The notes beneath the pieces were generated by a model, which saw only the letters and a program-made list of their open reading frames with translations, made no database searches and was not told the origin of the DNA. Of a stretch of 64,000 bases of DNA, positions 11,814 to 27,253 are shown in pieces. Where the stretch lies: positions 2,160,001 through 2,224,000 of the forward strand of contig NZ_CP128650.1 of assembly GCF_030644225.1 (NCBI RefSeq), written 5' to 3'. The translations under genes and the position numbers were made by a program. Source of the stretch: Selenomonas dianae. Lineage in GTDB: Bacteria; Bacillota; Negativicutes; Selenomonadales; Selenomonadaceae. The stretch's first letter is position 1. Each line of letters starts with the position of its first letter.

Positions 11814-12959
11814 TCACAACGCCCTCATTTTTGCAACAGTCCCCACAATCGCTCGCACCACATCATCAGCATCCTGTTCCGTAGTCTCCCGTCCGTAGGA
11901 GATGCGTAGTGCTTCCATTGCTTCCTTCTCACTGTATCCCATTGCAAGAAGTACATGAGACGGCACATCCGTCCCTGCGCTGCAGGCAGATGCCGCCGAA
12001 ACACAAATGCCCTTGAGATCGAGCAAATGCACAAGGGACTCGCCCCGCACATCTGGAACGCCAATATTCACCAGTCCCGGCAAGTGCGCCCCCCCTTCTC
12101 CATGTACGCGTGTCTCGGGCAGATTCGCCCGAATCTCCTGCACCGTATATGACACAAGCCCATGTAGACGCACGGCCTCATCCGCCATACATTCACAACT
12201 CTCCGTCAGAGCTTCGCCCAATGCGACAATCCCCGCCGTGTTCTCCGTCCCCGCACGCCATCCGCGCTCCTGCCCGCCGCCCGCAATCAGCGCGGGCAGC
12301 TCCGCGCCTGCCTTTTGATAGAGGAATCCCGTCCCCTTCATCCCGTAGAATTTATGCCCCGATGCAGTGAGATACGTTACGCCGAGCTCCCGAACATCAA
12401 CGGGAATATGCCCGACCGCCTGCACCGCATCGGTGTGAAAGGGGATACCGCGCCCCGCCAACGCTTCGGCAATCTCAGCAATGGGCTGAACCGTTCCGAC
12501 CTCATTATTGGCATACATAACAGACACTAGACGCGTATCCGTGCGTAGTGCACCGATAACAGACGCAGACGAAACGCGCCCCGCTCGCGAAACAGGCAAG
12601 TAGGAAACTTCTACACCACACCGCTCCAAAGCCCTGCACGTCATGAGAATCGACGGATGCTCGATCGCACTGACAACGATATGCACAGACTTGCTGCCCT
12701 GTTGCCGCGCCTCCTCCACCACACCGCGCAGAACAGTATTGTTCCCCTCTGAGCCCCCCGCCGTAAATACGATCTCCGCCGCGTGCGCTCCAACAGTGCA
12801 CGCCACTTGTTCACGCGCCCGCTCGACAGCTTTTCGCGCCCGCTTGCCAAACGAATAGGCACTCGATGCATTCCCGTAGTTCTCCCGAAAAAAAGGCAAA
12901 GCGACAGCAAGCGCTCTCTCCGAGAGCGCGGTCGTCGCCGCGTGATCCGCATATATCAT
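11814..12959 (-). CDS. NifS/IscS-like cysteine desulfurase next to the BREX locus
   Basis: A 381-residue PLP enzyme that takes sulfur from cysteine as a protein persulfide. K203 in SGHKFYG is the expected PLP lysine and C326 in SACSAGT is the catalytic cysteine; MIYADHAATT is the usual N-terminus. I chose ATG 12959 for that reason; in-frame GTGs at 12971 and 12980 are possible and no ribosome-binding site decides. It follows the defence genes on the same strand, separated by a MITE copy and a hairpin. Dnd and Ssp systems use such an enzyme (DndA, SspA) to feed a PAPS-reductase-like protein, which BrxP resembles. Housekeeping Fe-S or tRNA thiolation is the alternative. Confidence 0.9.
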   Translation of the reverse strand: MIYADHAATTALSERALAVALPFFRENYGNASSAYSFGKRARKAVERAREQVACTVGAHAAEIVFTAGGSEGNNTVLRGVVEEARQQGSKSVHIVVSAIEHPSILMTCRALERCGVEVSYLPVSRAGRVSSASVIGALRTDTRLVSVMYANNEVGTVQPIAEIAEALAGRGIPFHTDAVQAVGHIPVDVRELGVTYLTASGHKFYGMKGTGFLYQKAGAELPALIAGGGQERGWRAGTENTAGIVALGEALTESCECMADEAVRLHGLVSYTVQEIRANLPETRVHGEGGAHLPGLVNIGVPDVRGESLVHLLDLKGICVSAASACSAGTDVPSHVLLAMGYSEKEAMEALRISYGRETTEQDADDVVRAIVGTVAKMRAL

Positions 12960-12990
12960 CCGTTTATTCACCAACTTCACAAAACAAGAA

Positions 12991-13020
12991 GAGACGCTCC
13001 CCCTCCTCGTGAAGCGTCTC
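12991..13020 (-). terminator. Hairpin between the repeat and the cysteine desulfurase gene
   Basis: GAGACGCT at 12991-12998 pairs with AGCGTCTC at 13013-13020. On the minus strand it is followed by TTCTTGTTTT, so it could end the BREX transcript. Its loop contains GGAGGGGG, the only strong Shine-Dalgarno-like sequence before the desulfurase gene, so it could instead act on translation. Confidence 0.5.
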
Positions 13021-13027
13021 CCTTCCT

Positions 13028-13195
13028 TAAGGAAGCACTGATAAATTCAGCACCGCCATCTTGACGTATCTTTTTTGCCCGCACTTCGTCGGCAAATCCT
13101 CCACATAGCTTTGGCTATGCGTCCGGTTTGCCTCCTTGTTCGGACGAAAAAATCTACGCCAATCTGACGGACTTCATTTTATCAGCGATTCCTTA
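13028..13195. repeat. MITE-like repeat, copy B (168 bp)
   Basis: Same orientation as copy A and nearly identical, with TA at both ends (13028-13029 and 13194-13195). It separates the 65-residue zinc-ribbon gene from the cysteine desulfurase gene, and its end provides the TAA stop of the former. Confidence 0.85.
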
Positions 13196-13390
13196 AAACA
13201 ACGTACAGCCCTCATCCCTGAACTCTTCGACCTTCTCCCGAAGGAACTCCTCCTCCACCTCAAGGTATTCCGCAAGACATGAAAAGCAAAAAAAATCCTT
13301 TGCCTTCATATCCAGCAGCTTCTTCGTTAGACCGACCTCATCCTTTGACAAAGGATTTCCACATTCCCGACAAAACTTCTCTCGCGACAT
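13193..13390 (-). CDS. Small zinc-ribbon-like protein at the end of the BREX operon
   Basis: A 65-residue acidic protein with two CxxC pairs, CREC (about residues 7-10) and CFSC (about 35-38), likely binding one zinc, then a helical acidic tail (EVEEEFLREKVEEFRDEG). Its ATG lies three bases after the brxL TAG, so it is probably translationally coupled. The TAA stop lies in the terminal bases of the MITE-like repeat, so the C-terminus may have been altered by insertion. Role unknown; position suggests a BrxL-linked or regulatory factor. Confidence 0.75.
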   Translation of the reverse strand: MSREKFCRECGNPLSKDEVGLTKKLLDMKAKDFFCFSCLAEYLEVEEEFLREKVEEFRDEGCTLF

Positions 13391-13393
13391 CTT

Positions 13394-14836
13394 CTATATC
13401 TCCCGCAGTCGCAGCTTCGGTACATCCTTGCCCCTGTACTCAATATCCAGAACGCCCAGCTGTATCTTGACCGTATCGCGCATCTTGTGTGCCCGCCGCA
13501 AACAGTAGCGATCAAACTCGCGCACATTGACATCTGCCGCCGTACGGATATGAGGGAAGAGCAGCTTCATATATGCCGTTGCAATGCGCTTGATCGCCTC
13601 CGTATCGCGCGTATCGGCTTCCTCCGGCACCTCCACGATCTCATCCACGATGGCGCGATAAGACAAATCATCGCGCAGCTGATGAAGAATCGTCGAGAAA
13701 TACTCCGAGTTCAGCGCCCAGCCGGAGACCTTCAGATCCTCCGTCATACGCGGGATATTCCACCCCTTGATAAATCCGTGAAAGCGCTCGATCAGAGCCG
13801 ACTCATGGAACACCTTCGGCAGTTCCTCAAACATATTGCCATAGCCATCCTGATCCATAACCTCTTTCTTGATATTTCCGCAGAGAATCACACCGGCATC
13901 CCCGTCCACGCGATGCGTTCCGATATTGCAGTATCCATTCTCACAGAAGGACTTGAGTGCGCCGCGCATCTCATCCACATCGGGGAACGTGATCGTCTGC
14001 ACCTCATCCAGCGTCACAAAATCATGATTCGTCACAAGCCCGTCCTGTCGCCGTGCCACATCATAGAACATCTTTGCACGGCTCATCACACCACCGCTCG
14101 CCAACCAGCCGAAGCGGCTTACGCGCCCAAATAGATAGGATTTCCCCGTCCCCTTCGGTGCGAGTTCGATGAGGTTCAACTTCTTTTCGGCAAAGGGGAG
14201 GAGCCGTGTCAGCATCGTCAGCTTCTCTTCCTCACTCGCATACCCTGCGGGGTTGTAGTCCACCGCCCCCAGCAACACATCCATCCATTCTTCGGTTGTG
14301 AAGTCCCGTCGTGCGTCCTTATAGTAGTCCAAATCAATCGTATAGGGGCAGAAGCTCTTAAATGTGACGAGTTTGATTTTCCCTTTGTCCTGTACTGACT
14401 TTCCAGCTGGTGGACGGTAGCCCAGCTCCACCATCCCCCACGTCTCACGCGCCGCAACGAGTTCATCCTTGCAGTCCTGCCAGACATGCTCCTCGATCAT
14501 GGTCTCCTTACTCATCAGTCCAAAGTCCGGCAAAGAAAAGGACACCGCGCCCGTCTTAATATCAATATCAATCGAAATACGTGCAAGCAGCTTTACCTGC
14601 TCCCGTTCGATCACAATGCGGCTCTTGATTGCCGTCCATTCTTCCTTCCGCGGCAAAAAGCGATGCACAAAGCTCGCAAGTTCCTCGGCGTCAAATACAC
14701 CGTCCGCATTTGCAAACCGCTTCAAAAGCCAATCACGAAGGAAAGAAGGAAGTCCGAGTGCCGAAAGAAAACTGCTCTTCTTCAAATCCTTGTAAACAAT
14801 CATCTCATCAAAAGCATTTTTGAGCTTATCGATCAT
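13394..14836 (-). CDS. brxL: BREX protein BrxL (AAA+ ATPase, short form)
   Basis: A 480-residue protein of the BrxL/TIGR02688 family. The P-loop is APKGTGKS with K232; DFVTLDEVQTI and AGVILCGNI follow as AAA+ core motifs. The Lon-like protease domain of longer BrxL proteins of type 1 BREX is absent. The start is ATG 14836, eight bases from GGGGAGG; the in-frame ATG at 14842 is only two bases from it. BrxL proteins are known as hexameric DNA-binding AAA+ factors needed for phage exclusion in some BREX types. It follows pglZ by 23 bp. Confidence 0.85.
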   Translation of the reverse strand: MIDKLKNAFDEMIVYKDLKKSSFLSALGLPSFLRDWLLKRFANADGVFDAEELASFVHRFLPRKEEWTAIKSRIVIEREQVKLLARISIDIDIKTGAVSFSLPDFGLMSKETMIEEHVWQDCKDELVAARETWGMVELGYRPPAGKSVQDKGKIKLVTFKSFCPYTIDLDYYKDARRDFTTEEWMDVLLGAVDYNPAGYASEEEKLTMLTRLLPFAEKKLNLIELAPKGTGKSYLFGRVSRFGWLASGGVMSRAKMFYDVARRQDGLVTNHDFVTLDEVQTITFPDVDEMRGALKSFCENGYCNIGTHRVDGDAGVILCGNIKKEVMDQDGYGNMFEELPKVFHESALIERFHGFIKGWNIPRMTEDLKVSGWALNSEYFSTILHQLRDDLSYRAIVDEIVEVPEEADTRDTEAIKRIATAYMKLLFPHIRTAADVNVREFDRYCLRRAHKMRDTVKIQLGVLDIEYRGKDVPKLRLREI

Positions 14837-14859
14837 CAACATAACCTCCCCTCTTCACC

Positions 14860-17169
14860 TCAGAAGTCAAAATCATCATTCATCTTCATCCCTTTGCTCT
14901 GCGCCTCTACCACAAGCACGTTCAGGGGAGTATCCCCCTCATATACCGCAAGACTGTATGTGCCGGCGTGCGTAAGATCGGGAAGCTGCACCACGAAATG
15001 CTGGGCATCCTGCATTTGCCCCGCATAAAATTTACCTTGCCAAACAATCCCCAATGCGTTGATCGGCGCATCGGCAAAAAGAGCGAGGCGAAGCCCGGTC
15101 TTACGATCCACAAACACATTTTCATCCGCAAGGCTCACATGAACCGTCTGCCCATCGGCACGCTCCAATGTGATGAGCGGCACAAGCACCTCTTCCAACG
15201 ATGCGCCGCCGTGTACCTCCACACTCGCCTTACGGCTGCCCTTGAACCTGCCGTAGTCGGCAAGCACGAGGTAGTCGCCCTCCTCCGTTGCAAAAGGCAA
15301 ATCATGTGCATAGTTCGAAAACATACGGCAGCACCGCCCCGAATGCTCCCCCCTCGTATCCGTCTCGTACTTCTCCTCCTTCTCTCTGCGCACCGCCAGA
15401 CGAGAGGCTCCGTGATCGCTCACAATGACAAACCTGCGGCACTTTCCTGCCGCAAGCTGCGTCGCAGCATCACGCATCATCTCTTCGATTACATCTATTT
15501 CCTTCGCAAGGTGAATCGGATGTTTCTCCAGCGTATAGTTGTAGCGGCTCTCCTCGCCATGTTTCAGATCATCCAGTCGCTTGCTTGCCGCTTTACTGCC
15601 CTGCCATTGCGCGTAAAACGCCCGATTCACCGAGGTAATCGTCGGGAGCATCGCACGCCCCACCTGCACCCGTATCTTCAATCCGAGCTGTTTGCTAAAC
15701 GCCCCAATCAGGGCGAGATACTCCACGCCGAGCGCATCCAGCCAAAAGAGATGCGTCCCCTCCTGCGGAACACCATCCAACAGCGACTCACGCGCAGGGA
15801 GCTCATTATAAATCCGCGCCGCAGCAAGCGCATCTACTTTAGATAGGAACATCTCTTCGAGACAGTTGCTGAGCTTCTGCCGCTTGTAGGCAATGAAATA
15901 CTCCGTCAGTTCCGCTGCCCGTGCACAATCCTTGAACACATAGTCAGAGGCATAAGCATAGAGCGAGGGATAGACCGTTTGCAAAATCCCACAATTTTTC
16001 CAGTCATCATAGCCATCATCTGCATCATGCGAAAGTGCCGCGATCATATCCTCGCGCTCCACCTCCGTCAGATCCGTCAAACGGTAGATGCGCTCTGCAC
16101 GAATTCTGCGATTTTTCCGCACAAACTCCGCCATTTCTGCCTCAGAGCAATTGCGCAGGAGACGTTTCCGCTCCTGATACAGCTTCTGAAACTCTGGATT
16201 TTGAAGCGACATATTTGAGATGGCATGAATAACCGCCGTACGAAGTCCTGCGGCACTTTCCGCCTGCTGTGCGGCAAAGAAAAGATAGGGATACTTCTTC
16301 GCCATGTCGTCCCCTGCCAGCCGCAGGGCAATAAAATACAACCATCTATCAAAGTCAGAGGCATTGGTTCGCTCATGAAAAAGCTGTGCCAAATCTCCGT
16401 CCAGTCCGTAGTGCGCGAACACGGCAGACATCTTCCACTGTTCCTTGGAGAGTTCCTGCAAGAGCCGCTGCCATTCCGCCTCCGTCCCGCAAGAGCACAG
16501 GAGGGCAAATTCCTCACAAAAATGCGAAATCACCCCAAACGCATCCCTCACATGATGAACACGAAGGAGCGCATGGGGAAAGCTCTGCCGACTATGGACA
16601 ATGTGGACACCGCCGCGTCCCTGCTCCAATACCGCCAGCAAAGACCGTGCACCGTGTATTCCCGCCTCCACAGGAATCTCCGGCGGCAATACGCTCAGGG
16701 AGACATCCATCCCCAGCACAGAGTCCTCCGCCGCATCTTCGGCACTGCGCCGCAGTGCCAAGCGACGCTCACCGTTTGCGATACGGGGATCCTCGGACAG
16801 CTCCGACGCATAACGGAAAAATCCGCGCAGCAGAAGTAGAGCGGCACCATCCCCACAGGGCATCGACTTGAGACGGGAAAAGAGACGGCGCGCCGCCTCC
16901 TCCCCACACAGGGCGAGATATTCCGCCAAGCCGATGAGGAGGATCTTCTCACCGCTCTGCGCCTTCGTTTTGATGGTCGTAACAATGTCATCGGGAAGCG
17001 GCAGCCGATCCTCCTCAGAGGAAAGCGAACTCAGCGTAAGCAAATGAAGCCCCAGACCTTGCAGCCTGTGGCGCAGCTGCGCATAGACCGAGTCCCCCGC
17101 AAAGAGGAAGAACGGCGTTCGCTCCCTGTCCTGCAAATATCGCTCGACAGCTGTCAAATCCGGCACCAT
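14860..17169 (-). CDS. pglZ: BREX protein PglZ (alkaline phosphatase superfamily)
   Basis: A 769-residue PglZ-domain protein. Metal-binding motifs of the alkaline-phosphatase fold are visible as D478 in FWLDALG and D585 in IVSDHGAS, and HGGASLEEVLVP is the PglZ signature. PglZ is the one protein found in nearly all BREX types; it has nuclease/phosphatase-type chemistry and holds the complex together. ATG 17169 is preceded by GGGAGTG. It sits between brxC and brxL, as in other type 4 loci. Confidence 0.9.
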   Translation of the reverse strand: MVPDLTAVERYLQDRERTPFFLFAGDSVYAQLRHRLQGLGLHLLTLSSLSSEEDRLPLPDDIVTTIKTKAQSGEKILLIGLAEYLALCGEEAARRLFSRLKSMPCGDGAALLLLRGFFRYASELSEDPRIANGERRLALRRSAEDAAEDSVLGMDVSLSVLPPEIPVEAGIHGARSLLAVLEQGRGGVHIVHSRQSFPHALLRVHHVRDAFGVISHFCEEFALLCSCGTEAEWQRLLQELSKEQWKMSAVFAHYGLDGDLAQLFHERTNASDFDRWLYFIALRLAGDDMAKKYPYLFFAAQQAESAAGLRTAVIHAISNMSLQNPEFQKLYQERKRLLRNCSEAEMAEFVRKNRRIRAERIYRLTDLTEVEREDMIAALSHDADDGYDDWKNCGILQTVYPSLYAYASDYVFKDCARAAELTEYFIAYKRQKLSNCLEEMFLSKVDALAAARIYNELPARESLLDGVPQEGTHLFWLDALGVEYLALIGAFSKQLGLKIRVQVGRAMLPTITSVNRAFYAQWQGSKAASKRLDDLKHGEESRYNYTLEKHPIHLAKEIDVIEEMMRDAATQLAAGKCRRFVIVSDHGASRLAVRREKEEKYETDTRGEHSGRCCRMFSNYAHDLPFATEEGDYLVLADYGRFKGSRKASVEVHGGASLEEVLVPLITLERADGQTVHVSLADENVFVDRKTGLRLALFADAPINALGIVWQGKFYAGQMQDAQHFVVQLPDLTHAGTYSLAVYEGDTPLNVLVVEAQSKGMKMNDDFDF

Positions 17170-17185
17170 TGCATTTCACTCCCAT

Positions 17186-20100
17186 TTACGAGTTTTCCAG
17201 AATCTCCATCCCGACCGTCATATTATCTGCCACAAGGCGCTTCAAATATGCCTTGAGCGTTGCATCGTCCATACTGTCGATCTTCGAGAGCACCTTGGAG
17301 GAGCCGCCTGCATCGTAGCTCGCCTTTGCAAGCTGCTTCAGTTTTTCCTCAACGCGCAGGTGACCTCTCCAGTCGTACGGAGAGATACCGAGTGCAGTCA
17401 GTTTTTCACGTACTACCGGCAAATCAGTCAAGAGTCCCGCATACTTCCCGATGACATTTTTGCGGAACGCTGCATCTCTCTGTGCCCCATCCGAAAGCAC
17501 CGTGATAAAAGCCGCCTTCTCCAAAAAGGCAATCGCCGCCTTCAGTTCCTCGTCCTTGCCGTCGCGATGGTCAATATAGGAGAATACACGCTGCGCCGCA
17601 TCGTATTCATCCGCCCCCACACAGGCAAGGACAGGTGTTTGGTACTGCTCCGACCATTTGCGCGGACTGAGCGAGCCCGTTTTCTCCTTCCAGAGTTCGC
17701 GCAGCTGTTCCTTGAGCTGACTGCGCCGATACTCCTCCGCACAGGAACGTACCGCCTCATTGCAGTGGGTTTTCGTTTTGAGGAAAAGCCCCTGCTCCAC
17801 CTTGCTCCGTATTGTTTTCCGCTCTGCCTCAGAAAGCCCATCCAGATAGGGAGCATACGCCTTGGCAAAGAACACATCCTCCTCACCGAGCACCTGCTCC
17901 ATCTCGGCACCATACTGTTCCATCAACGAAACAAAGTCACGCACATGCTCGGGCAGGACATCACCGCCCTTCGCCAACAGTTGGAGAATATGCCTCGTCT
18001 TCGCAAACGCTTCGGACTGCTCCGCCAAAAATTCTGCCGAGATACGCAGGAAGCTCAGGCGTTCCTTCCACGCCGCACGTGCCGCAGTCCACTCCTGAAG
18101 CTGTACATTGAGCACCCGATTCGTCGCACGAACCGCGCGATACTCCATGCAGAGCTCCCGCAGGAGCTCCTCCCCTGTCTCCTTGCTCCAAAGACAGGCG
18201 TACTTCTGTGAAAACTTGTGTCGTATATCTTGGAGCAGCTGACCGCGCCGCCCAAGTTCATCCGCAAGATGCAGGAGTTCACCATCGGCAAAGGATTTCA
18301 GGAAGAGGTTCATCCCCTCCTCCAGCCGTTCCACACAGAGCAGTGCTTTCAGCTCATCCGCCAACGAGGGATGTTCTTGCGGAGAGCTTCCAAGCGCCAT
18401 CATGATGCCGTGAGCCTCGCGTCCCTCCTTCTGCTGCAGAAGGGAATACAGCTCAACAACAGCGAACAAATTCTCCTCTGCCAAATCATCGAGGCACCAA
18501 AGCGGCAGCTGCCACTCCTTCATGCGATTTTGGATGCCAATGGAGACTCGCGCCACAGACGTACAGCTTGCCTCCGATAGGCCCCACGCCTTTTGCGTTA
18601 TCTCATAAAAGGCGCGCTCCTCTGCCGTCATCTCCACGATAAAGGTATCCTGCGGTGTCTTTCCCTTTGCCAGATCGCCAATACAGTCCCCCAGCATCTC
18701 TTTTAGCTTCTCGGCAGTCATTGCCCCCGAGCTGCCCGCCGCATCGCCGTAGCGATAGGGATCGCCTGCGTATGGACGCAGCAGGAAACCGAGCAGGAAC
18801 GCCGTGAGATTGCACGGAGGCATCCCATACTCCGACAGGAGCACATCGCATAGCTCGGCAACGCCGATCTGACCCGCCTGAGAGAATTGGGCAGCGATGC
18901 GAGCTTCCAGATCCCTCTTGATCATAGAGATGGGAAGACTCTTCGTCTCCGCTCTCTGCCAATAGTCGGGGAGCGTCCACACCTCGGACAAGACGCGATT
19001 GTCCGCATCCTTGATCGTACCTGACACTACACCATTGAGGCCGGCGAGTGCCGATGGCTTTAGCGCATTTGTCTTATAATACCCTTCCGTGGTTGTCTTC
19101 TCAACATCAAAGGCGTTTGGAAATTGACGCAGCACAATCGCTTTAAGAACGCCGGACACCTCACTTGCCTGCGTCAGAGAGATTCCGTCCGGCTGCTGTG
19201 CCGTATAGACGATAAAGCGGCCGCTGTAGATACGGTTCTTCCAGCTCTGCTCCAGTACAGCGTTTGCATGTCTTGCCTGCTGATCGGCTGCCGTCCGATT
19301 ATTCCCCTGATAGTATTCCGCCATTGCGGAGTATTCCACATATTTCTCGAAATCGTCTGCTCCAAGCGGCGTGCTCAGTGCATCGATAAAAATGATATGC
19401 CCATACTTCGGATCACGCGCTGCGTCCTTGATCTTGGAGCGGAAAGCAGCCGCCTCCATATCGTCCTTGGCGAAGGCAAGGACGGCTTGAAAACGCCACG
19501 CCTCCACTGGCTTCTCCAGCCCATTGATAATACGGGTAAAGTTATCGGCCGTCACCGTCTGGATACTGCCGAGACTGCTCAGGAAGCGTGGCTTCAACCC
19601 CTCGGGGTGGAGTGTCAGAATCTTGCCCAGATTCCCCGTCTCCACCAGCTTATCCGTCTTCGTCTTGCGCAGCCCCTCCTTGTACTGCTCGATCTTCCCC
19701 TGATCGCCGCTGAGCAGTGCCAAATCATACGTCGGCCCTCCCTTTTGACGAGGCGTTTGGATCAAAATCCCCTGCGTCTTGAGAGACTGTGCGATCGCGG
19801 CAACACGAGAGCCCAGATCATCATCCCCCTCAAACACATAGGAGAGATTCTGATCCGTCGCGTGCAGGAGTTCGATGCTGCCGCCCAACTGCTTATCCAC
19901 TGCGAGCAGGATCAAAATCGCCTTGAGCACCGTCTGCTGTTCCTCACGCAAATCCTTCTGCTGCTCATAGGTGTCCAGAATCATGCGGATATGGGTTGCA
20001 AGATCTGCCTTTCCACGCACATAGAAGAAATCCCAGAGCTGATCCACCGTCAGCAGAGGATGCTCGTCATACGGACCCGTATGATCGATGAAATATTGGA

Positions 20101-21331
20101 ATGCCTTGACCTGCTCATCCCCAACCGACTTGATAAAATCAAACATACTACGCTGGTTCGACTGGAACGAGGATGCAATATGTTTGAGAACCAGAGCCGT
20201 CATCGGATGCAGAGGCATGATATTTCGGATCACATCCTCAGACGTGATGCCCGCGACATCCATCACGCGACGACGGGACTCATGAAGACGACCATTGAGA
20301 TCGCCCTCCACCTCCGCCCAATCCTGCGCCGCGACAGCTTTCGGCTTGAATGCCGCACCGATGAGATCAAACGCGATATTGTCCGGCAGTGTAATCCCGA
20401 CATCGATGAAGCGGTCGCGAACCTTCTTCCACGTCTCATCCGCCTGCGTAAAAAGATGATCCGTCTCATGGGTCACAGGAACGAAGAAAAAATGCTTTGC
20501 ATTCACGAGCTCCGCCAGTTTTTGAAAATCTGCCAGACTCTCACGATTTATGCGGAAATAGTCCGAGAATTCATCCCAGATAAAGACGAGTTTGATATTG
20601 TTCTGCTCAATGACATCCGTCAGCCACGCAATCAGACGATCAATATCGAGCTGCATCATGGTAAAGCCCTCGGCGTTAGAGAGTCGCGTAATACGCTCCA
20701 TGAGGTCACGCACCTCACCGCCCTCGCGCAGACGTGTGACAATATCCTCGACCATCATCCCGCCGAACGATGCCGTCCATTGCGGCTGCTGTAGCACGCT
20801 GTCAACGAAGATCTTGCGCGCCTCAGTCGCCTCCAGCCATGCGATGACACTCTCCTTGAGCGTATGTTCTCCCTCGTAAAGGCCACGCGCATGAAGTTCT
20901 GCCTGCACACTCTCCTGCACGGCAATGAGCAGATCTTGCGTCGAGTGCGGAGTTCCCGCGTAGCGGTACACCGTCACAATGCCATTGCCTACCTGCTTGT
21001 GTCCAAGCAGCTTGCCCAGTAAATCAGTCTCATGTGCGAGTGCCTTATAGTCTTCCCAGTAGGCGCGCAGTTCCGACTCGGGTACATCGAGAATCTTCTT
21101 GAGCGTATAGGCGCACTGCGACTTGCCCGTGCCGTATGCGCCCGAGATCCACACCGAGCGTTTCTCCTGCCGCGCCATCACACGCTCCATCTTTTTCAGC
21201 AGTTCCAGAAACTTCTCATGCGGATAGGTTTTCAGCCACAGATTCTCCGAGTCCCGAATCGAGGAGTCCGTTATCTGAGGAAAATAGTTCTCGTCAAAGT
21301 CAAAATATGTGCGATACATTCCCTGTGCCAT
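17186..21331 (-). CDS. brxC: BREX protein BrxC (large ATPase)
   Basis: A 1381-residue P-loop ATPase. Walker A is GAYGTGKS with K70 and Walker B is LVFIWDE with D253. Long helical segments fill the C-terminal half. BrxC/PglY is a core component of BREX complexes. ATG 21331 is chosen: it lies ten bases after GGAGG and four bases after the brxP stop, while in-frame ATGs upstream lie inside brxP. Homologues with a DUF6079 label belong to this family; I recognise it from motifs plus gene order. Confidence 0.9.
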   Translation of the reverse strand: MAQGMYRTYFDFDENYFPQITDSSIRDSENLWLKTYPHEKFLELLKKMERVMARQEKRSVWISGAYGTGKSQCAYTLKKILDVPESELRAYWEDYKALAHETDLLGKLLGHKQVGNGIVTVYRYAGTPHSTQDLLIAVQESVQAELHARGLYEGEHTLKESVIAWLEATEARKIFVDSVLQQPQWTASFGGMMVEDIVTRLREGGEVRDLMERITRLSNAEGFTMMQLDIDRLIAWLTDVIEQNNIKLVFIWDEFSDYFRINRESLADFQKLAELVNAKHFFFVPVTHETDHLFTQADETWKKVRDRFIDVGITLPDNIAFDLIGAAFKPKAVAAQDWAEVEGDLNGRLHESRRRVMDVAGITSEDVIRNIMPLHPMTALVLKHIASSFQSNQRSMFDFIKSVGDEQVKAFQYFIDHTGPYDEHPLLTVDQLWDFFYVRGKADLATHIRMILDTYEQQKDLREEQQTVLKAILILLAVDKQLGGSIELLHATDQNLSYVFEGDDDLGSRVAAIAQSLKTQGILIQTPRQKGGPTYDLALLSGDQGKIEQYKEGLRKTKTDKLVETGNLGKILTLHPEGLKPRFLSSLGSIQTVTADNFTRIINGLEKPVEAWRFQAVLAFAKDDMEAAAFRSKIKDAARDPKYGHIIFIDALSTPLGADDFEKYVEYSAMAEYYQGNNRTAADQQARHANAVLEQSWKNRIYSGRFIVYTAQQPDGISLTQASEVSGVLKAIVLRQFPNAFDVEKTTTEGYYKTNALKPSALAGLNGVVSGTIKDADNRVLSEVWTLPDYWQRAETKSLPISMIKRDLEARIAAQFSQAGQIGVAELCDVLLSEYGMPPCNLTAFLLGFLLRPYAGDPYRYGDAAGSSGAMTAEKLKEMLGDCIGDLAKGKTPQDTFIVEMTAEERAFYEITQKAWGLSEASCTSVARVSIGIQNRMKEWQLPLWCLDDLAEENLFAVVELYSLLQQKEGREAHGIMMALGSSPQEHPSLADELKALLCVERLEEGMNLFLKSFADGELLHLADELGRRGQLLQDIRHKFSQKYACLWSKETGEELLRELCMEYRAVRATNRVLNVQLQEWTAARAAWKERLSFLRISAEFLAEQSEAFAKTRHILQLLAKGGDVLPEHVRDFVSLMEQYGAEMEQVLGEEDVFFAKAYAPYLDGLSEAERKTIRSKVEQGLFLKTKTHCNEAVRSCAEEYRRSQLKEQLRELWKEKTGSLSPRKWSEQYQTPVLACVGADEYDAAQRVFSYIDHRDGKDEELKAAIAFLEKAAFITVLSDGAQRDAAFRKNVIGKYAGLLTDLPVVREKLTALGISPYDWRGHLRVEEKLKQLAKASYDAGGSSKVLSKIDSMDDATLKAYLKRLVADNMTVGMEILENS

Positions 21332-21335
21332 TTCC

Positions 21336-23603
21336 TCAGACCTCCTCGGTGCGGAAGAGTTCCAATACATCTGCGGAGCTCTTATCCTCTGCCAGCGTGA
21401 TCTTCTCCAAATCATGCGTAAAGGACACGTCAATGAAATCCGGATACTTCGCCGAAAGCCCCCGCAGCATTGGCTCCGCCTCCTCGCGCGTCACACCGAA
21501 GATCCGCGTCGGACTGATGCCGTCACGCTCAATTGTATCATTGAGCAGCGTCGAGAGCGTGAACGCTTTATAGTCGCCGCATTTCTCCGCGAACTTAAAC
21601 AGCCCGTAGAGGAACACACGCGCATCCGAAAGCACACATTTCGTTCGGCAAAGACTCCCATCCTCCGACACATAGCCAAAGTTTAGTACAGTGCCGAGAG
21701 GTGTATTAACAATACGCTTAAATGATTTCACAATCGACTTTGCGTCTTTAGGCTTTACTTCAAACACAAGAAGCATATTCTCGACATCGGCTCTAGCATA
21801 CAGTCGATTTAGGTCAAGATTCTTTATATACCAAGCTATTTGAGGATTGTCAGCCGCCAGATTGAGTAAGATAAGCCCTTCTGCTTCTGCCGAATCCCAC
21901 CCAAGACCGGCAATCAGCTCAGCAAATGGAGTAAAATGATTTTTTTCATTTAAGCCAGCATCGCGTAGAAATCGACGGAACATATCATACATATTGGGAC
22001 CCAATGTATGCTCCGTAAAAAAAGCTTCTTTCAGCTCAAAAAACGATTTCATCCATTCGGGTTTTGGTGCATGATCGGCAAACGAGTTCAAACTCTTCAT
22101 AGCTTTTCCCCCTCCTTGTGGATGTCTTAACGAATGAAACATCAAGCATCCACTGTCAATGTCATGACACGCATGACATTGAATACATCCATCGATTTTT
22201 ACTTTTCCTTCATTGAAACTGATACAGCCATGCGGACAATTCGTTTCACATACACGACATGAACTACAGTAAGAAGCCTTCCGAAATACCTGTCGAAACA
22301 ACTTGCTGAGTTCGGCTCTGTCTTTTAAGGTTCTCTCAGAGATTTTTACATCGTAGCCATCCGCTGTTTGTTTTACAACAAAACGAATTGTCTCACGTTT
22401 ATATGCTAAATAGCACACCTCTCCTTCTACACGCAGTTCCCCAATCGTCTTCATCCATTCTTGCCAGTCCGAATCAGGTCTTCTCACCACAATACGAACA
22501 GTATTCTTCTCCACTGTTTCAACACAGCGAAAGGGGTTATCCAACAAATCCCTGCCATTTTTTCGAGCATTCCACCCACCATTCACAAGATAGGATTCTG
22601 CTTGTTTTTTTGCTCCTCCATGTGTGTTCTTAATAATATCTGTGTATTGTCGCACTTCATCCGGATAGCTTGTTTGACGGAAGAACCCGCTCACGCCACC
22701 TGACATAGGGCAGAACAAGCATCCGGCTCTGGCATTCCCTTTTTTATACGTTTCATTGATCAGAAGTTTGTGTGTATAGATATACAGCCAGATTTCGGCA
22801 GAAGTCCATTTCAAAATAGAATTATGACTGAACTGTCCTCTTTGTTTTTTTCCATAATTTTCATATTGATAACTACTTCGCCTGACACTTTCCTCGGCAC
22901 GGACACCAACGAAGTCCATCCCGACATAGTCTTTTTTTCCTAGCACTTCACGAATTTTCAAAGTTTGTGGTGTGCTCTTATGAACCGAGCAGCACCAGCG
23001 AAGTGTACGCGATGGGGGACCAAAGAGATTCCATGACTCGGCGGGGGTAAAATGCGAGGCAGCCCGATAGAACGGTATCTCCTCGGCTTTGCACTCCGCC
23101 TCTACCTGATCGACGAGCGCGTAGGTGTCCGGGAACTCCATCCCCGTATCGCCGAACACAACAACAAAGCTGCCCTGCGGCAGTGCCTTTTTCACGAGAT
23201 CGAGCAGGACACAGCTGTCCTTCCCTCCCGAGAACGCAACATGAAAACAATCCAGCTTTGCTCGATACTTCTCATAAACCGCGACGATCTTCTTCACCGT
23301 GGTCTGCTCAATCAACTCCAGCATCTCGCGATTCTTCGCGACCATACGAGGAATATCTACACAGATGAGCTCCACGCCTTTCGGAAGAAGTAGGTCGCCG
23401 TTCTCATCCGCCATCAGCTCAATCTGTGGTGCGGTATAGACATCGCCGCCCTTGAGCTTTGCAACCATCTGCCCACGGTAGTAGTAGCAATTCGCCTCTG
23501 CCCAGAGATAGGGCAACTCATTCTGATGTACGTACTTCCAATACGCATCAAATCCCAAAACATCCAACTCAGCAGCATATACAGGACGAGGCTCCTTGGA
23601 CAT
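21336..23603 (-). CDS. brxP: BREX type 4 protein BrxP (PAPS-reductase-like, ferredoxin-containing)
   Basis: At least 755 residues from ATG 23603. The PP-loop SGGKDS (125-130) and GDTGMEFPDT mark the PAPS reductase/DndC-type domain. WCCSVHK and GCLFCPMS add cysteines, and CSSCRVCETNCPHGC plus CIQCHACHD are ferredoxin-like 4Fe-4S motifs; an unrecognised C-terminal domain follows. Type 4 BREX has this protein in place of PglX. The frame stays open upstream of the ATG and encodes a convincing extra N-terminus (IYSYTYDDETGGLLLNSS). An ATT codon at 23666 lies five bases after GAGGGG, whereas the ATG has no ribosome-binding site, so the true start may be ATT, giving 776 residues. GC content drops sharply inside the gene. 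Confidence 0.88.
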   Translation of the reverse strand: MSKEPRPVYAAELDVLGFDAYWKYVHQNELPYLWAEANCYYYRGQMVAKLKGGDVYTAPQIELMADENGDLLLPKGVELICVDIPRMVAKNREMLELIEQTTVKKIVAVYEKYRAKLDCFHVAFSGGKDSCVLLDLVKKALPQGSFVVVFGDTGMEFPDTYALVDQVEAECKAEEIPFYRAASHFTPAESWNLFGPPSRTLRWCCSVHKSTPQTLKIREVLGKKDYVGMDFVGVRAEESVRRSSYQYENYGKKQRGQFSHNSILKWTSAEIWLYIYTHKLLINETYKKGNARAGCLFCPMSGGVSGFFRQTSYPDEVRQYTDIIKNTHGGAKKQAESYLVNGGWNARKNGRDLLDNPFRCVETVEKNTVRIVVRRPDSDWQEWMKTIGELRVEGEVCYLAYKRETIRFVVKQTADGYDVKISERTLKDRAELSKLFRQVFRKASYCSSCRVCETNCPHGCISFNEGKVKIDGCIQCHACHDIDSGCLMFHSLRHPQGGGKAMKSLNSFADHAPKPEWMKSFFELKEAFFTEHTLGPNMYDMFRRFLRDAGLNEKNHFTPFAELIAGLGWDSAEAEGLILLNLAADNPQIAWYIKNLDLNRLYARADVENMLLVFEVKPKDAKSIVKSFKRIVNTPLGTVLNFGYVSEDGSLCRTKCVLSDARVFLYGLFKFAEKCGDYKAFTLSTLLNDTIERDGISPTRIFGVTREEAEPMLRGLSAKYPDFIDVSFTHDLEKITLAEDKSSADVLELFRTEEV

Positions 23604-23667
23604 CTTCGTCGGTGAGGAGTTTAACAGCAGCCCCCCCGTCTCGTCATCATACGTATAGGAATAAATT

Positions 23668-25089
23668 TCAACCCCTCACCTTCGCTAGTGCTATTACGAC
23701 GTTTAGTTGTCTGTCAATCGGCATTTTACCAACATAACCAAAATCACAAAGAAACTGTCCAACTGTTTCGCGTTCCAAGTCTATATTTGCATGAAGTACG
23801 GCATCTGCCAACAAATCATCGTAAGTTCTAAGTGATGCAGTTTTCCGAATAACGGCTCCCACATTACCATTATTAAATTGCGGTGCTTCAAATCGAAATT
23901 GCCGACTAAACCTTCTGCAATAGCTCTCAAGTAAGTACCGATTCCACTGCTTTCCACATGCAGGAAAATGTGCAAAGGACACAAAATCTTTTAAGACAAG
24001 ATATTCTCCAACAACGATTTCTGAAAGCACTTCATCCGTTCTTGCTACATCAAAAGCCACGTAAGAATCCGATACAAAATTCTCCGCATCAACTCGAACC
24101 ATTATTTCCAATGCTGCACGCAAGGCTGTCACACTATTTTTTGTAAGTTTTTTCGCATAATCATTCATCTCCGACAACGTACAGACATCTCGCTCGCGAC
24201 AGAACGCACGCATTCGGTCAATCGCCGACATTTTCCGCCCCTCCGCCGCTGATGAATGCCCTTTTTGCGTTACGGTGACACCCTTTTTATCGTAATGATC
24301 CGCCAGACAGATCGCATAAATCGCATCATAAATCGCGGAGCAACTCTCCGTCTCGAGTTCATAGTTCTCGGCGAGAACATCATCGACGGGCAGTTCCTTG
24401 ATGCTCCAGTACGGCTGCTGCTCCGAAAGCTCTTGAGCCTTTTCGCGCAGCCGAACCTTCACCTCATCACGGATTGCAACACGCGAAACATGCGTATACG
24501 TCTCGTTCGACACCCGCAGGAAATCACCGCCATCCCGCAATGTTTGTTTGATTTTATCATAGGGGATATAGAGTCGATCTGCCAGTTCCTCATACGTCCA
24601 TAGGGTCTTATCACCCCAGATCGCTATTATATCGTCTGTGATTACATCAAAAAGAGTACCATCCCGCTTTCCAAAGTACATTTTTTCATAATGCAGGTCG
24701 GGGAATAATTGCCGCAAGACAGCGTTCAAGATGGATTCGCTAAATATATGCGCATCGCTCAGCTTCTTTTGATGGCGTGCGAAAAACGCCTCATAGAAGA
24801 TGACCTGCGACTTTCCGAGATAAGTCGTAACAATAAATTGCAGCCAGTCCAGGACATCGCGAGGAATCAGAAATGCCATTTGCCCGTCCTGTATGGTGAA
24901 CGCAGCAATCTGTGCACGCACAGCATGATCCGATGCCAGCAGCTCCTCGCCACCATGATCTTCCCGCCATCGCTCACGCAGCTGCCGCATTGCAATCGGC
25001 GAATTGAGCCGATAGCCATTGGGAAAATGACGACGAAGGAGCTGCAGCAGCGCATCTCGCAAGAAATCATTCCCCGCAAAAATGCCCAT
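23668..25089 (-). CDS. Unrecognised 473-residue protein in the BREX operon
   Basis: I do not recognise a family. The start is ATG 25089; an in-frame GTG at 25101 abuts its AGGAAG site and is too close. The protein is soluble and mostly helical, with possible winged-helix stretches (LWTYEELADRLYIPYDKIKQTLRD and VCTLSEMNDYAKKLTKNSVTALR) that would suit DNA binding, and a conserved-looking end (ETVGQFLCDFGYVGKMPIDRQL). Its stop lies at the 5' end of brxP, two bases from the candidate ATT start, so the two are probably coupled. A DNA-binding accessory or specificity factor is a guess from position only. The 3' third is AT-richer than the rest. Confidence 0.75.
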   Translation of the reverse strand: MGIFAGNDFLRDALLQLLRRHFPNGYRLNSPIAMRQLRERWREDHGGEELLASDHAVRAQIAAFTIQDGQMAFLIPRDVLDWLQFIVTTYLGKSQVIFYEAFFARHQKKLSDAHIFSESILNAVLRQLFPDLHYEKMYFGKRDGTLFDVITDDIIAIWGDKTLWTYEELADRLYIPYDKIKQTLRDGGDFLRVSNETYTHVSRVAIRDEVKVRLREKAQELSEQQPYWSIKELPVDDVLAENYELETESCSAIYDAIYAICLADHYDKKGVTVTQKGHSSAAEGRKMSAIDRMRAFCRERDVCTLSEMNDYAKKLTKNSVTALRAALEIMVRVDAENFVSDSYVAFDVARTDEVLSEIVVGEYLVLKDFVSFAHFPACGKQWNRYLLESYCRRFSRQFRFEAPQFNNGNVGAVIRKTASLRTYDDLLADAVLHANIDLERETVGQFLCDFGYVGKMPIDRQLNVVIALAKVRG

Positions 25090-25123
25090 GCCTTTATTCA
25101 CCTTCCTAATCTATAATAAATGT

Positions 25124-25193: not shown

Positions 25194-25943
25194 CTAATCG
25201 GCCCCATCAAATATATCAAACGCCTGCAAGGTTCTTTGTATCTCCGCAAGTTCGTTCCAATCTATTGTACTTAGTATTTTCCGGTGTTTTTGATAAATAT
25301 GTGTCGGCGCAGCAATAGCAAGATATACCGCCAATGGAGCTTTTACTTGATCTTCCCTGACTGATAAATATGGCATATTCTCTTTTTCTTTATGTTTTAC
25401 CAGACATTGAACAAACTTTCGCGACACTCTCGCAAGACACGCTCCTTTTGCGGTTTTCTCCAAGCCTGACAAAAGAGCGGTCTCCAAAGCGCCTTCACCT
25501 TCCAACGGTATGCCCAAAAAGAGAGTTTCTACATCGATAAGACGCCCGCCCATTGCCGTGGGTTGACGACCTTTACACCATGCACCATCTTGAAAGTTTG
25601 GCAAATTATACTTTTGTAGAATCTGATTAAGTTCTTGCAACAGAGCATTCTTTTCTGCCTCACTGTCATGATCGGCAATGACAGCGATATGTGTGTACCG
25701 ATTCTGCAGATTAGTATTGACATAATTGACACGCAAAACTTCTTCCAACTTCGTACAAAATTTTGTACATCCTTGAACCACACGAATTGTAAGAAGTATT
25801 TGGTCTTTTTCATAATAGCAGTCTTCTATGTACTCATTGCGAATCTCGCCGTCGCCTTTATGTAGAAAGCCAAATCGCTTGCAAAAATAACGATCTAAGA
25901 CAACTCGATCCGATTCACCTTCGCAAAGTATGATGACATTCAT
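25194..25943 (-). CDS. TOPRIM-type nuclease-like partner of an OLD-like ATPase
   Basis: A 249-residue protein. ILCEGESD (5-12) and VIADHDSEAE (about 88-97) match the glutamate and DxD motifs of TOPRIM folds, as found in OLD nucleases and in two-gene ATPase/TOPRIM defence pairs. Its ATG overlaps the stop of the upstream ATPase by four bases, so the two are translationally coupled and likely form one complex. Composition is clearly AT-richer than the flanks. Exact family (for example DUF3226- or DUF4435-like) cannot be decided by eye. Inferred role: effector cleaving nucleic acid when the ATPase is triggered. Confidence 0.75.
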   Translation of the reverse strand: MNVIILCEGESDRVVLDRYFCKRFGFLHKGDGEIRNEYIEDCYYEKDQILLTIRVVQGCTKFCTKLEEVLRVNYVNTNLQNRYTHIAVIADHDSEAEKNALLQELNQILQKYNLPNFQDGAWCKGRQPTAMGGRLIDVETLFLGIPLEGEGALETALLSGLEKTAKGACLARVSRKFVQCLVKHKEKENMPYLSVREDQVKAPLAVYLAIAAPTHIYQKHRKILSTIDWNELAEIQRTLQAFDIFDGAD

Positions 25944-27100
25944 ATTCTCAGCTCCAATCCACGCTCACGTGCCCACAGAGCCTCCTCCCCGTCCATGACA
26001 CGATGCGTAACGCCCTGGCCATCATGACGCAGTGTAACAATACGAATCTGTTCTTGTAAGCACTGCTTTCCCCGTTTCTGAGCCGCCTGCAGGAGCGCAT
26101 CCATATACTCCAAATTGTGCGTCGTCATAAAGAGCTGATTGTTATATTTCTCTGCATAGTGAAGGAGATTACGGCTCAACTGCTCCTGCGCCTCTGAGTG
26201 GAATCCGCTGTCAACTTCCTCTAGGCAGTGAATGGCGCGCGGAAACGATAACATCCCACCTAAAATGTCATACCAGCGTCGAACACCATCCCCCATCCCA
26301 TAGAGAGGGATTCGCCCACCGTCTTTCATGAAAAGTGAAATAGATGCCTCAGAGCCATCAGGGAATGGTATATTCTCTATTTTTTGTATCGACAACCCTT
26401 CAAATGATCGATTCATTTCCATTGCAAACGCATCGATTTCATTCTCTCTGCTTAACTGAGAATAAATCCTTTTATTTTCTTTTTCATTTCGATACGTAAG
26501 CATATCGGTAAATCGGGCTAAAAACAACGGTTTTTTACTTTTCATTTCACCGGGAATATGTGGAAATAAAATTTGATATAAACTTTCTTGTTCATTGACT
26601 GCTATTTTCCAGCTTCCAATCAACTGCGGGTCAATCTGTATACTGATACTGTCATTCGTTTGCATTTGTATGCGGGGAACGTGTATGTCATCTGGTGCAA
26701 TATCTATCGTATGCCCCTCATCCGGCGAATGATAAAAAAAATCTGAGAATATCTCCCCCGGAACAAGTGTATGATGTATATTTATGACACTGTCATCTGT
26801 CTTAATCTTAAAAGAGAACTCATACGTATCCCGCTCCGTTTTTCTTGTAAAGGAATTAAACACTGCATCAGCCATTCGATAAGGTGTCATGGACTGCCCT
26901 GAATACTGCACAGAACGGCTCATGATCCCCTTGGAAAACAGCGGTCTAAAGTGATCCCCACATGCCCCCCCATAAACAGCCTCTAGCAGTGTTGTCTTGC
27001 CGGCGTTGTTCATCCCGACAAAAAGATTGACCTGTGCGAGATTTTCAATTTGTATATGCTCAAATTTTTTGAAGTCATTGATCTCTATTGTTCGAATCAT
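25940..27100 (-). CDS. SMC/OLD-like AAA ATPase, sensor partner of the TOPRIM protein
   Basis: A 386-residue ABC/SMC-type ATPase starting at ATG 27100, nine bases after GGAGG; an in-frame start at 27175 lies before the promoter's -35 box. MIRTIEINDFKKFEHIQIENL is the typical N-terminal strand pair, GMNNAGKTT (K35) is Walker A, CLEEVDSGFH resembles Walker B/D-loop and MTTHN the switch histidine. Similar ATPases pair with TOPRIM proteins in OLD, Gabija and PARIS-type defence. It is the first gene of the minus-strand defence locus and has its own promoter. The middle (about 26330-26880) is much AT-richer than both ends. Confidence 0.8.
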   Translation of the reverse strand: MIRTIEINDFKKFEHIQIENLAQVNLFVGMNNAGKTTLLEAVYGGACGDHFRPLFSKGIMSRSVQYSGQSMTPYRMADAVFNSFTRKTERDTYEFSFKIKTDDSVINIHHTLVPGEIFSDFFYHSPDEGHTIDIAPDDIHVPRIQMQTNDSISIQIDPQLIGSWKIAVNEQESLYQILFPHIPGEMKSKKPLFLARFTDMLTYRNEKENKRIYSQLSRENEIDAFAMEMNRSFEGLSIQKIENIPFPDGSEASISLFMKDGGRIPLYGMGDGVRRWYDILGGMLSFPRAIHCLEEVDSGFHSEAQEQLSRNLLHYAEKYNNQLFMTTHNLEYMDALLQAAQKRGKQCLQEQIRIVTLRHDGQGVTHRVMDGEEALWARERGLELRI

Positions 27101-27134
27101 ATCGCAATCCTCCCTATTATTCTTTTGCAAATTC

Positions 27135-27163
27135 ATTATACCCCACGTTTCGGCATATGGAAA
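27135..27163 (-). promoter_or_regulatory. Promoter of the ATPase/TOPRIM/BREX gene series
   Basis: On the minus strand TTTCCA (27163-27158), a 17-bp spacer and a perfect TATAAT (27140-27135) stand 35 bp before the ATPase start codon. It diverges from the promoter at 27254. Confidence 0.7.
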
Positions 27164-27253
27164 GCACAAAACCAACCGCTATGACGATTCTCTTTCCGAA
27201 AAATGAAGAACTCCCTGATAAAGCCACATCGTCATATGAGACAATTCGCCCGA

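Follow-up and report, generated by a model that had tools for sequence, protein, structure and literature searches.

A type 4 BREX locus in Selenomonas dianae that very probably ends in its own cysteine desulfurase

A stretch of 64,000 nucleotides of the Selenomonas dianae genome (contig NZ_CP128650.1, positions 2160001-2224000 of a single contig of 2.39 Mb), here called the window, carries at 11814-25101 what is very probably a complete type 4 bacteriophage exclusion (BREX) locus ending in a dedicated cysteine desulfurase that feeds sulfur to modification. The genes are in place, the same linkage is seen at many loci, the linked desulfurases make up a single clade, and the whole block occupies a site at which relatives lack it. 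The link between BREX-4 and a desulfurase is correct and already in print (PMC12839542; NAR, January 2026). Our analysis adds the separateness of the desulfurase clade, two loci that lack pglZ and brxL, an invariant C-terminal cysteine in a small zinc protein, and a conserved upstream gene.

The genes of the locus lie on the minus strand, in the transcription order 477-amino-acid gene, brxP, brxC, pglZ of BREX-4 type, brxL, 65-amino-acid zinc-ribbon gene and desulfurase, and a narG-type gene comes next after the desulfurase on the same strand. Upstream of the desulfurase, PADLOC names BrxL, PglZ, BrxC and BrxP, and PglZ scores 399 bits with the NCBIfam model 'BREX-4 system phosphatase', whose cut-off is 140. 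The set that defines type 4 BREX, namely brxP, brxC, a BREX-4 type pglZ and brxL, is therefore present. A sequence-only reading of this DNA had noticed a desulfurase following the BREX genes on the same strand, and it proves to be the last gene of a type 4 locus; the same reading saw only a repeat and a hairpin in between, and missed the zinc-ribbon gene (13193-13390).

Counted from a GTG start, the desulfurase has 388 amino acids. The catalytic residues first proposed, K203 and C326, are correct if translation begins at the ATG at 12959; from the GTG start they become K210 and C333, the numbering used below. These two residues align with the pyridoxal phosphate (PLP) lysine and the loop cysteine of Escherichia coli IscS, and two histidines match as well. 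With its PLP lysine, active-site histidine and long-loop cysteine the protein belongs to class I (IscS/NifS), an activity predicted from sequence. Across the BREX-linked desulfurases the PLP lysine is found in 38 of 38 sequences and the loop cysteine in 37 of 38, the sole exception (G180a) being a gap in an open reading frame that runs off its contig.

Family models place the enzyme near several known desulfurases. Pfam gives a match to Aminotran_5 at 237 bits, and the nearest NCBIfam models are NifS (406 bits), IscS (311-317 bits) and DndA (315 bits), all under their curated cut-offs. Assignment as DndA was rejected on the score (315.2 bits versus a cut-off of 480 for TIGR03235) and on separate clades in our trees, and no match to DndC was found at 1e-60 in the window genome. 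A housekeeping IscS by NCBIfam was likewise rejected (310.5 versus 643.2 bits and 317.1 versus 548 bits), as was SspA, since the protein falls outside the separate 100/100 clade of Ssp-linked desulfurases; the PADLOC models for SspA and DndA score alike and cannot separate these enzymes.

The sequence-only reading proposed asking whether NifS-like genes neighbour brxP in general, and within the class surveyed, probably Negativicutes, this link is common. Among 380 genomes, 64 had a match to the BrxP model at 1e-50, and 48 loci in 43 genomes were taken; these comprise 46 full-length and two partial matches of 73, the omitted 25 being half-length Ssp-like matches and short fragments. For the desulfurase 57 matches were used. 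SufS-like matches above about 340 bits were omitted, save one (G128:C2) that has no effect on the result, as were matches under 200 bits, SerC among them; inspection by eye placed none of the omitted matches within 15 kb downstream of any brxP. One further match (G188:C71, 49.5 bits) was dropped. A desulfurase stands downstream on the same strand in 31 of the 48 brxP loci, or in 31 of 38 when the ten loci cut by contig ends are excluded. In a genome of 2.5 Mb, one given gene would by chance fall on the same strand and no more than 9.1 kb downstream in about 0.2% of cases; because the loci are related, we give no joint probability across them. Two of the end-cut loci belong to genomes with a separate contig bearing the expected remainder, brxL-zinc gene-desulfurase in G175 and brxC-pglZ-brxL-zinc gene-desulfurase in G220, and in G219 a BREX-type desulfurase stands at a contig end.

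Two brxP loci per genome were observed in G180, G197, G206, G218 and G219. In each of the first four, one locus bears a desulfurase and the other is without one (G197, G206) or end-cut (G180, G218); in G219 both brxP loci end at contig ends.

The association extends beyond the class. In a scan of named relatives outside it, restricted to the best 80 of 311, 14 BREX-4 loci were readable past pglZ, and seven of these have the zinc gene plus the desulfurase; they come from Spirochaetota, Fibrobacteraceae, Lachnospiraceae (three), Ruminococcaceae and Peptococcaceae. On a plasmid of Thermomicrobium roseum the BREX-4 locus (L146) has a desulfurase right after brxL with an overlap of 4 bp, and no zinc gene was found there; a Methanosphaera plasmid BREX-4 record has no desulfurase. 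Two class loci, G181 (L092) and G204 (L129), hold brxP, brxC, the zinc gene and the desulfurase in the absence of pglZ and brxL. That the desulfurase is kept in them points to the modification half of the system, with the caveat that two cases are few; both genomes are drafts (94% and 85% complete), and the G204 brxP matches the model over positions 1-559 only.

The desulfurases of these loci also belong together by descent. In a careful tree of 70 sequences, 31 BREX-type sequences, including the window's and contig pieces from G175 and G220, lie on one side of a branch supported at 96/91. Ten of 80 sequences had been dropped from this tree for long branches or short open reading frames, among them those of T. 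roseum, G180a, G206a and the G215 contig piece. In a quick tree of all 80, to which four sequences below 60 bits were not added and from which three were removed (SufS, G070:C5 and G128:C49), the other class BREX sequences and three contig pieces grouped at 99. A third tree took 17 of the 31 class BREX sequences together with the named loci; here 24 BREX-4 sequences from several phyla group at 98/94, 11 Ssp-linked desulfurases at 100/100 and three DndA sequences at 100/100. The comparison with DndA and SspA that the sequence-only reading called for thus gives one BREX-4 clade, apart from DndA, from the Ssp-linked desulfurases and from IscS. Sister species aside, the window desulfurase branches with one from Spirochaetota at 100/99, and the BrxP of that locus, at 67% identity, is the joint highest in the named scan. 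Distances between desulfurases correlate with those between BrxP proteins (r 0.51 over 38 loci), and none of 5000 permutations gave a value as high.

Comparison with the genus suggests how the gene came to its present site. Full-length brxP is absent from 12 of 14 genus genomes, and the BREX-type desulfurase is absent from the same 12; a BREX-free relative carrying the same desulfurase at the same site was looked for among these genomes and not found. To the right of the island stands a 1718-amino-acid gene, which seven relatives hold together with narG. Five of these (G004, G009, G010, G011 and G012) have the two genes 701-3442 bp apart with no match to brxP or the desulfurase in between, and in G001 and G005 the two are far apart. 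In the window the distance is 16,250 bp and accommodates the desulfurase, the BREX genes and an M38A/B pair. This spacing rules out the desulfurase as a core gene at this site. The sister species G004 carries its BREX block elsewhere (C2:138-151 kb) and its narG site is empty, so that the simplest reading is that the desulfurase arrived with the island.

The genus has a core IscS of its own. It is found in nine of the 12 brxP-less genomes, belongs to the same class I family and is 47-53% identical to the window protein. In 9 of 9 the order is miaA, hfq, an Rrf2-family regulator, iscS, rodZ, nrdR and a radical-SAM gene (miaA, hfq, rodZ and the radical-SAM gene named by eye, nrdR confirmed); the regulator passes the Rrf2 cut-off and fails that for IscR. 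The window genome, G004, G001 and G008 have kept the regulator, and iscS is missing between it and rodZ (L247-L250), where it appears to have been lost. A search for other IscS, NifS or SufS genes, also suggested earlier, returned for the window genome one SufS (TIGR01979, 602.8 bits versus a cut-off of 475.1) and no other IscS/NifS type. Its eight Aminotran_5 matches are the desulfurase, SufS, SerC, a PhnW-like protein, an O-acetylhomoserine sulfhydrylase, a decarboxylase-like protein, an aminotransferase and one protein without family. In the comparison with the window desulfurase, the only match in G001 is SufS-like; G005 has an intact dndA-like gene beside dndC, and G008 a broken dndA-like copy (L036, 8323-9151).

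We propose the following route for the sulfur. The desulfurase would draw sulfur from cysteine, carry it as a persulfide on C333 and pass it, directly or via the small zinc protein, to BrxP, which resembles 3'-phosphoadenosine-5'-phosphosulfate (PAPS) reductase; BrxP, with the BrxC ATPase, would insert it in the DNA backbone as a phosphorothioate mark, and PglZ and BrxL would act against unmarked phage DNA. PMC11931770 states, with citations to other studies, that brxPCZL makes phosphorothioate. Transfer of sulfur to BrxP and phosphorothioate in Selenomonas dianae itself are what we infer from the genes. The earlier idea of a sulfur-self-sufficient BREX-4 module is thus supported by linkage and by the clade, with a desulfurase that presumably feeds BrxP.

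The gene of the zinc protein is present in 31 of 31 class loci with the desulfurase and in three of the seven without. The protein contains four paired cysteines in a zinc ribbon, and C-x2-C, C-x2-C and a C-terminal GC-x-LF are found in all 36 class zinc proteins (34 of 36 fit a stricter first motif, and 36 of 36 fit one with no fixed residue before the third cysteine); all five cysteines are common to the window protein and nine named sequences. An AlphaFold model (pLDDT 86.4) has three helices. The fifth invariant cysteine raises the idea of a sulfur relay or adaptor, not a regulator, whose C-terminal cysteine passes persulfide from the desulfurase to BrxP and which could also dock a housekeeping desulfurase at loci that have the zinc gene without the linked enzyme. 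We regard this idea as unlikely.

Several observations weigh against a desulfurase dedicated to BREX. Seven class loci with downstream room have no desulfurase there (G128, G302, G206b, G197b, G230, G192 and G215, the last with a BREX-type copy on another contig), nor do seven of the 14 named loci, two of which have the zinc gene only and five, from four Bacteroidota and Coprothermobacter, neither gene; such loci indicate that the system can do without the enzyme. In the quick tree the branch that joins the window's pair to the other BREX sequences has a support of only 80. The T. roseum desulfurase falls outside the clade, beside E. coli IscS and DndA, which suggests a separate recruitment of the enzyme in one BREX-4 lineage or more. 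The correlation of BrxP with the desulfurase is weaker than that of BrxP with BrxC (0.95). SufS could also supply sulfur, and in the window a hairpin resembling a miniature inverted-repeat transposable element (MITE) sits between the desulfurase and the rest of the operon, where it could cut transcription.

This last point leads to an alternative that we judge improbable, in which the desulfurase is silent here, cut off from its operon by the inserted repeat, and SufS feeds BrxP. The repeat spans about 170 bp. Of 130 candidate copies 40 were scored, and 41 matches, the window copy among them, reach 86% identity or more; two additional weak matches are counted copies read on the opposite strand. 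Besides the window copy the genome holds at least 40 others, at 86-98% identity, which rules the repeat out as part of the BREX system. It is absent from this junction in G004, where the first possible desulfurase start codon lies 4 nucleotides past the zinc gene stop, and it therefore looks as if it entered a compact operon at a later time. In most relatives the genes are closely spaced, from which we infer that the desulfurase is co-transcribed with the operon, and the inserted repeat may interfere with this in the window genome: the stretch that bears it folds at -108.7 kcal/mol versus a shuffle mean of -69.4, and a pattern scan finds terminator-like patterns between repeat and gene. However, these are terminator-like by pattern alone, and the same scan detected nothing promoter-like from the zinc gene to the desulfurase, so that read-through is the likely route of expression. 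The gene has also kept an intact frame and 93% identity to the sister copy.

It is very unlikely that the enzyme is instead a housekeeping IscS standing beside BREX by accident and serving tRNA thiolation or iron-sulfur assembly. The desulfurase family is mainly housekeeping, and with the iscS of relatives missing here the BREX enzyme could also serve MnmA (an MnmA-family gene lies at 1.28 Mb); however, the window protein belongs to the BREX-4 clade and not to the genus iscS clade, none of the 12 genus genomes without full-length brxP has it, and in G001 and G008 no iscS or intact IscS-type gene was found, so SufS seems to be enough there. A double role, as BREX-4 donor and in housekeeping sulfur transfer where iscS is missing, is unlikely. 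No second IscS-type gene was found in 22 of the 31 linked genomes, nine of which are at least 95% complete, although the other 13 fall below that value, and G001 and G008 live without either enzyme. A desulfurase dedicated to the BREX locus is thus the reading we prefer.

The locus can be set beside known systems. As described in PMC12839542, type 4 BREX has the same set, a PAPS reductase-DUF4007 fusion, BrxC, PglZ, BrxL, the desulfurase and a small zinc-finger protein. According to that paper, 255 of 457 type 4 taxa have the desulfurase, which had not been linked with BREX before and is potentially a sixth core component; the small zinc-finger protein is described there too, as similar to helix-turn-helix-type regulators. 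The paper has the desulfurase closely resembling DndA, whereas in our trees it forms a separate clade, distinct from three class DndA sequences. Dnd likewise encodes a NifS-like desulfurase (DndA) near a PAPS-reductase-like sulfur-transfer protein (DndC), but according to the literature has its own ATPase and restriction genes, and the DndA sequences form a separate clade. The window BrxP and BrxC weakly match the SspD and SspC models; in contrast, the desulfurases of 11 Ssp-like loci (so labelled from our own profiles, with a PADLOC check on one locus, L187) form a separate clade, and two that were inspected have a shorter catalytic loop. The genus IscS differs in its clade and in its core site between regulator and rodZ-nrdR, where the window genome has none.

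Features of the locus and the evidence behind them (positions within the window)
Feature	Position	Strand	Basis
Class I cysteine desulfurase, BREX-4 clade; PLP lysine K210, loop cysteine C333	11814..12980	-	NCBIfam, Pfam, trees, alignment
Small hairpin just upstream of the desulfurase start	12986..13007	-	terminator-like by pattern only
MITE-like inverted repeat between zinc gene and desulfurase, ends approximate	13027..13196	.	genome copies, sister comparison
Zinc-ribbon protein, 65 amino acids, C-terminal GC-x-LF motif invariant	13193..13390	-	motif, alignments, AlphaFold
brxL	13394..14842	-	PADLOC, NCBIfam, Pfam
pglZ, BREX-4 type	14860..17169	-	PADLOC, NCBIfam
brxC	17186..21433	-	open frame from first possible start; PADLOC
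brxP, PAPS-reductase-like domain	21336..23603	-	PADLOC, NCBIfam, Pfam
Conserved upstream gene, 477 amino acids, no family over cut-off	23668..25101	-	Pfam, NCBIfam, PADLOC, model

The true start of brxC is probably downstream of the open-frame start, as the PADLOC match begins at residue 40. The brxP product has eight invariant cysteines in a ferredoxin-like region, and its C-terminus matches a second BrxP model. Upstream of brxP, 43 of 44 genes (268-1148 amino acids) fall into one single-linkage homology cluster, four of the 48 loci having no upstream gene by the rule used. No Pfam or NCBIfam model reaches its cut-off with the window member, PADLOC gives no match to this gene, its profile shows no relation to BrxP, and profiles of it and of the zinc protein found no meaningful relative among solved structures. 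Its product looks in the predicted model (pLDDT 86.6, pTM 0.54) like a row of winged-helix modules. The text, as distinct from the figures, of the PMC12839542 section on this desulfurase makes no mention of the gene, which we do not claim to be unpublished. Compared in 250-bp steps with the block of the sister species (L030), most of the locus is 92-100% identical; two stretches have been replaced, residues about 185-477 of the upstream gene and about 212-628 of BrxP, which looks like an exchange of specificity parts. Within the same inserted stretch, at 25194-27175, we also observed an ATPase plus DUF3226-like pair matching the PADLOC candidate PDC-M38A/B.

If our reading is right, type 4 BREX travels with its own sulfur supply and works in hosts without IscS, and the window, whose host is without an iscS of its own, is a clean natural test of this. 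A portable sulfur supply would help to explain the spread of sulfur-based defence between phyla, and brxP, brxC, the zinc gene and the desulfurase would be a compact set for rebuilding BREX DNA phosphorothioation.

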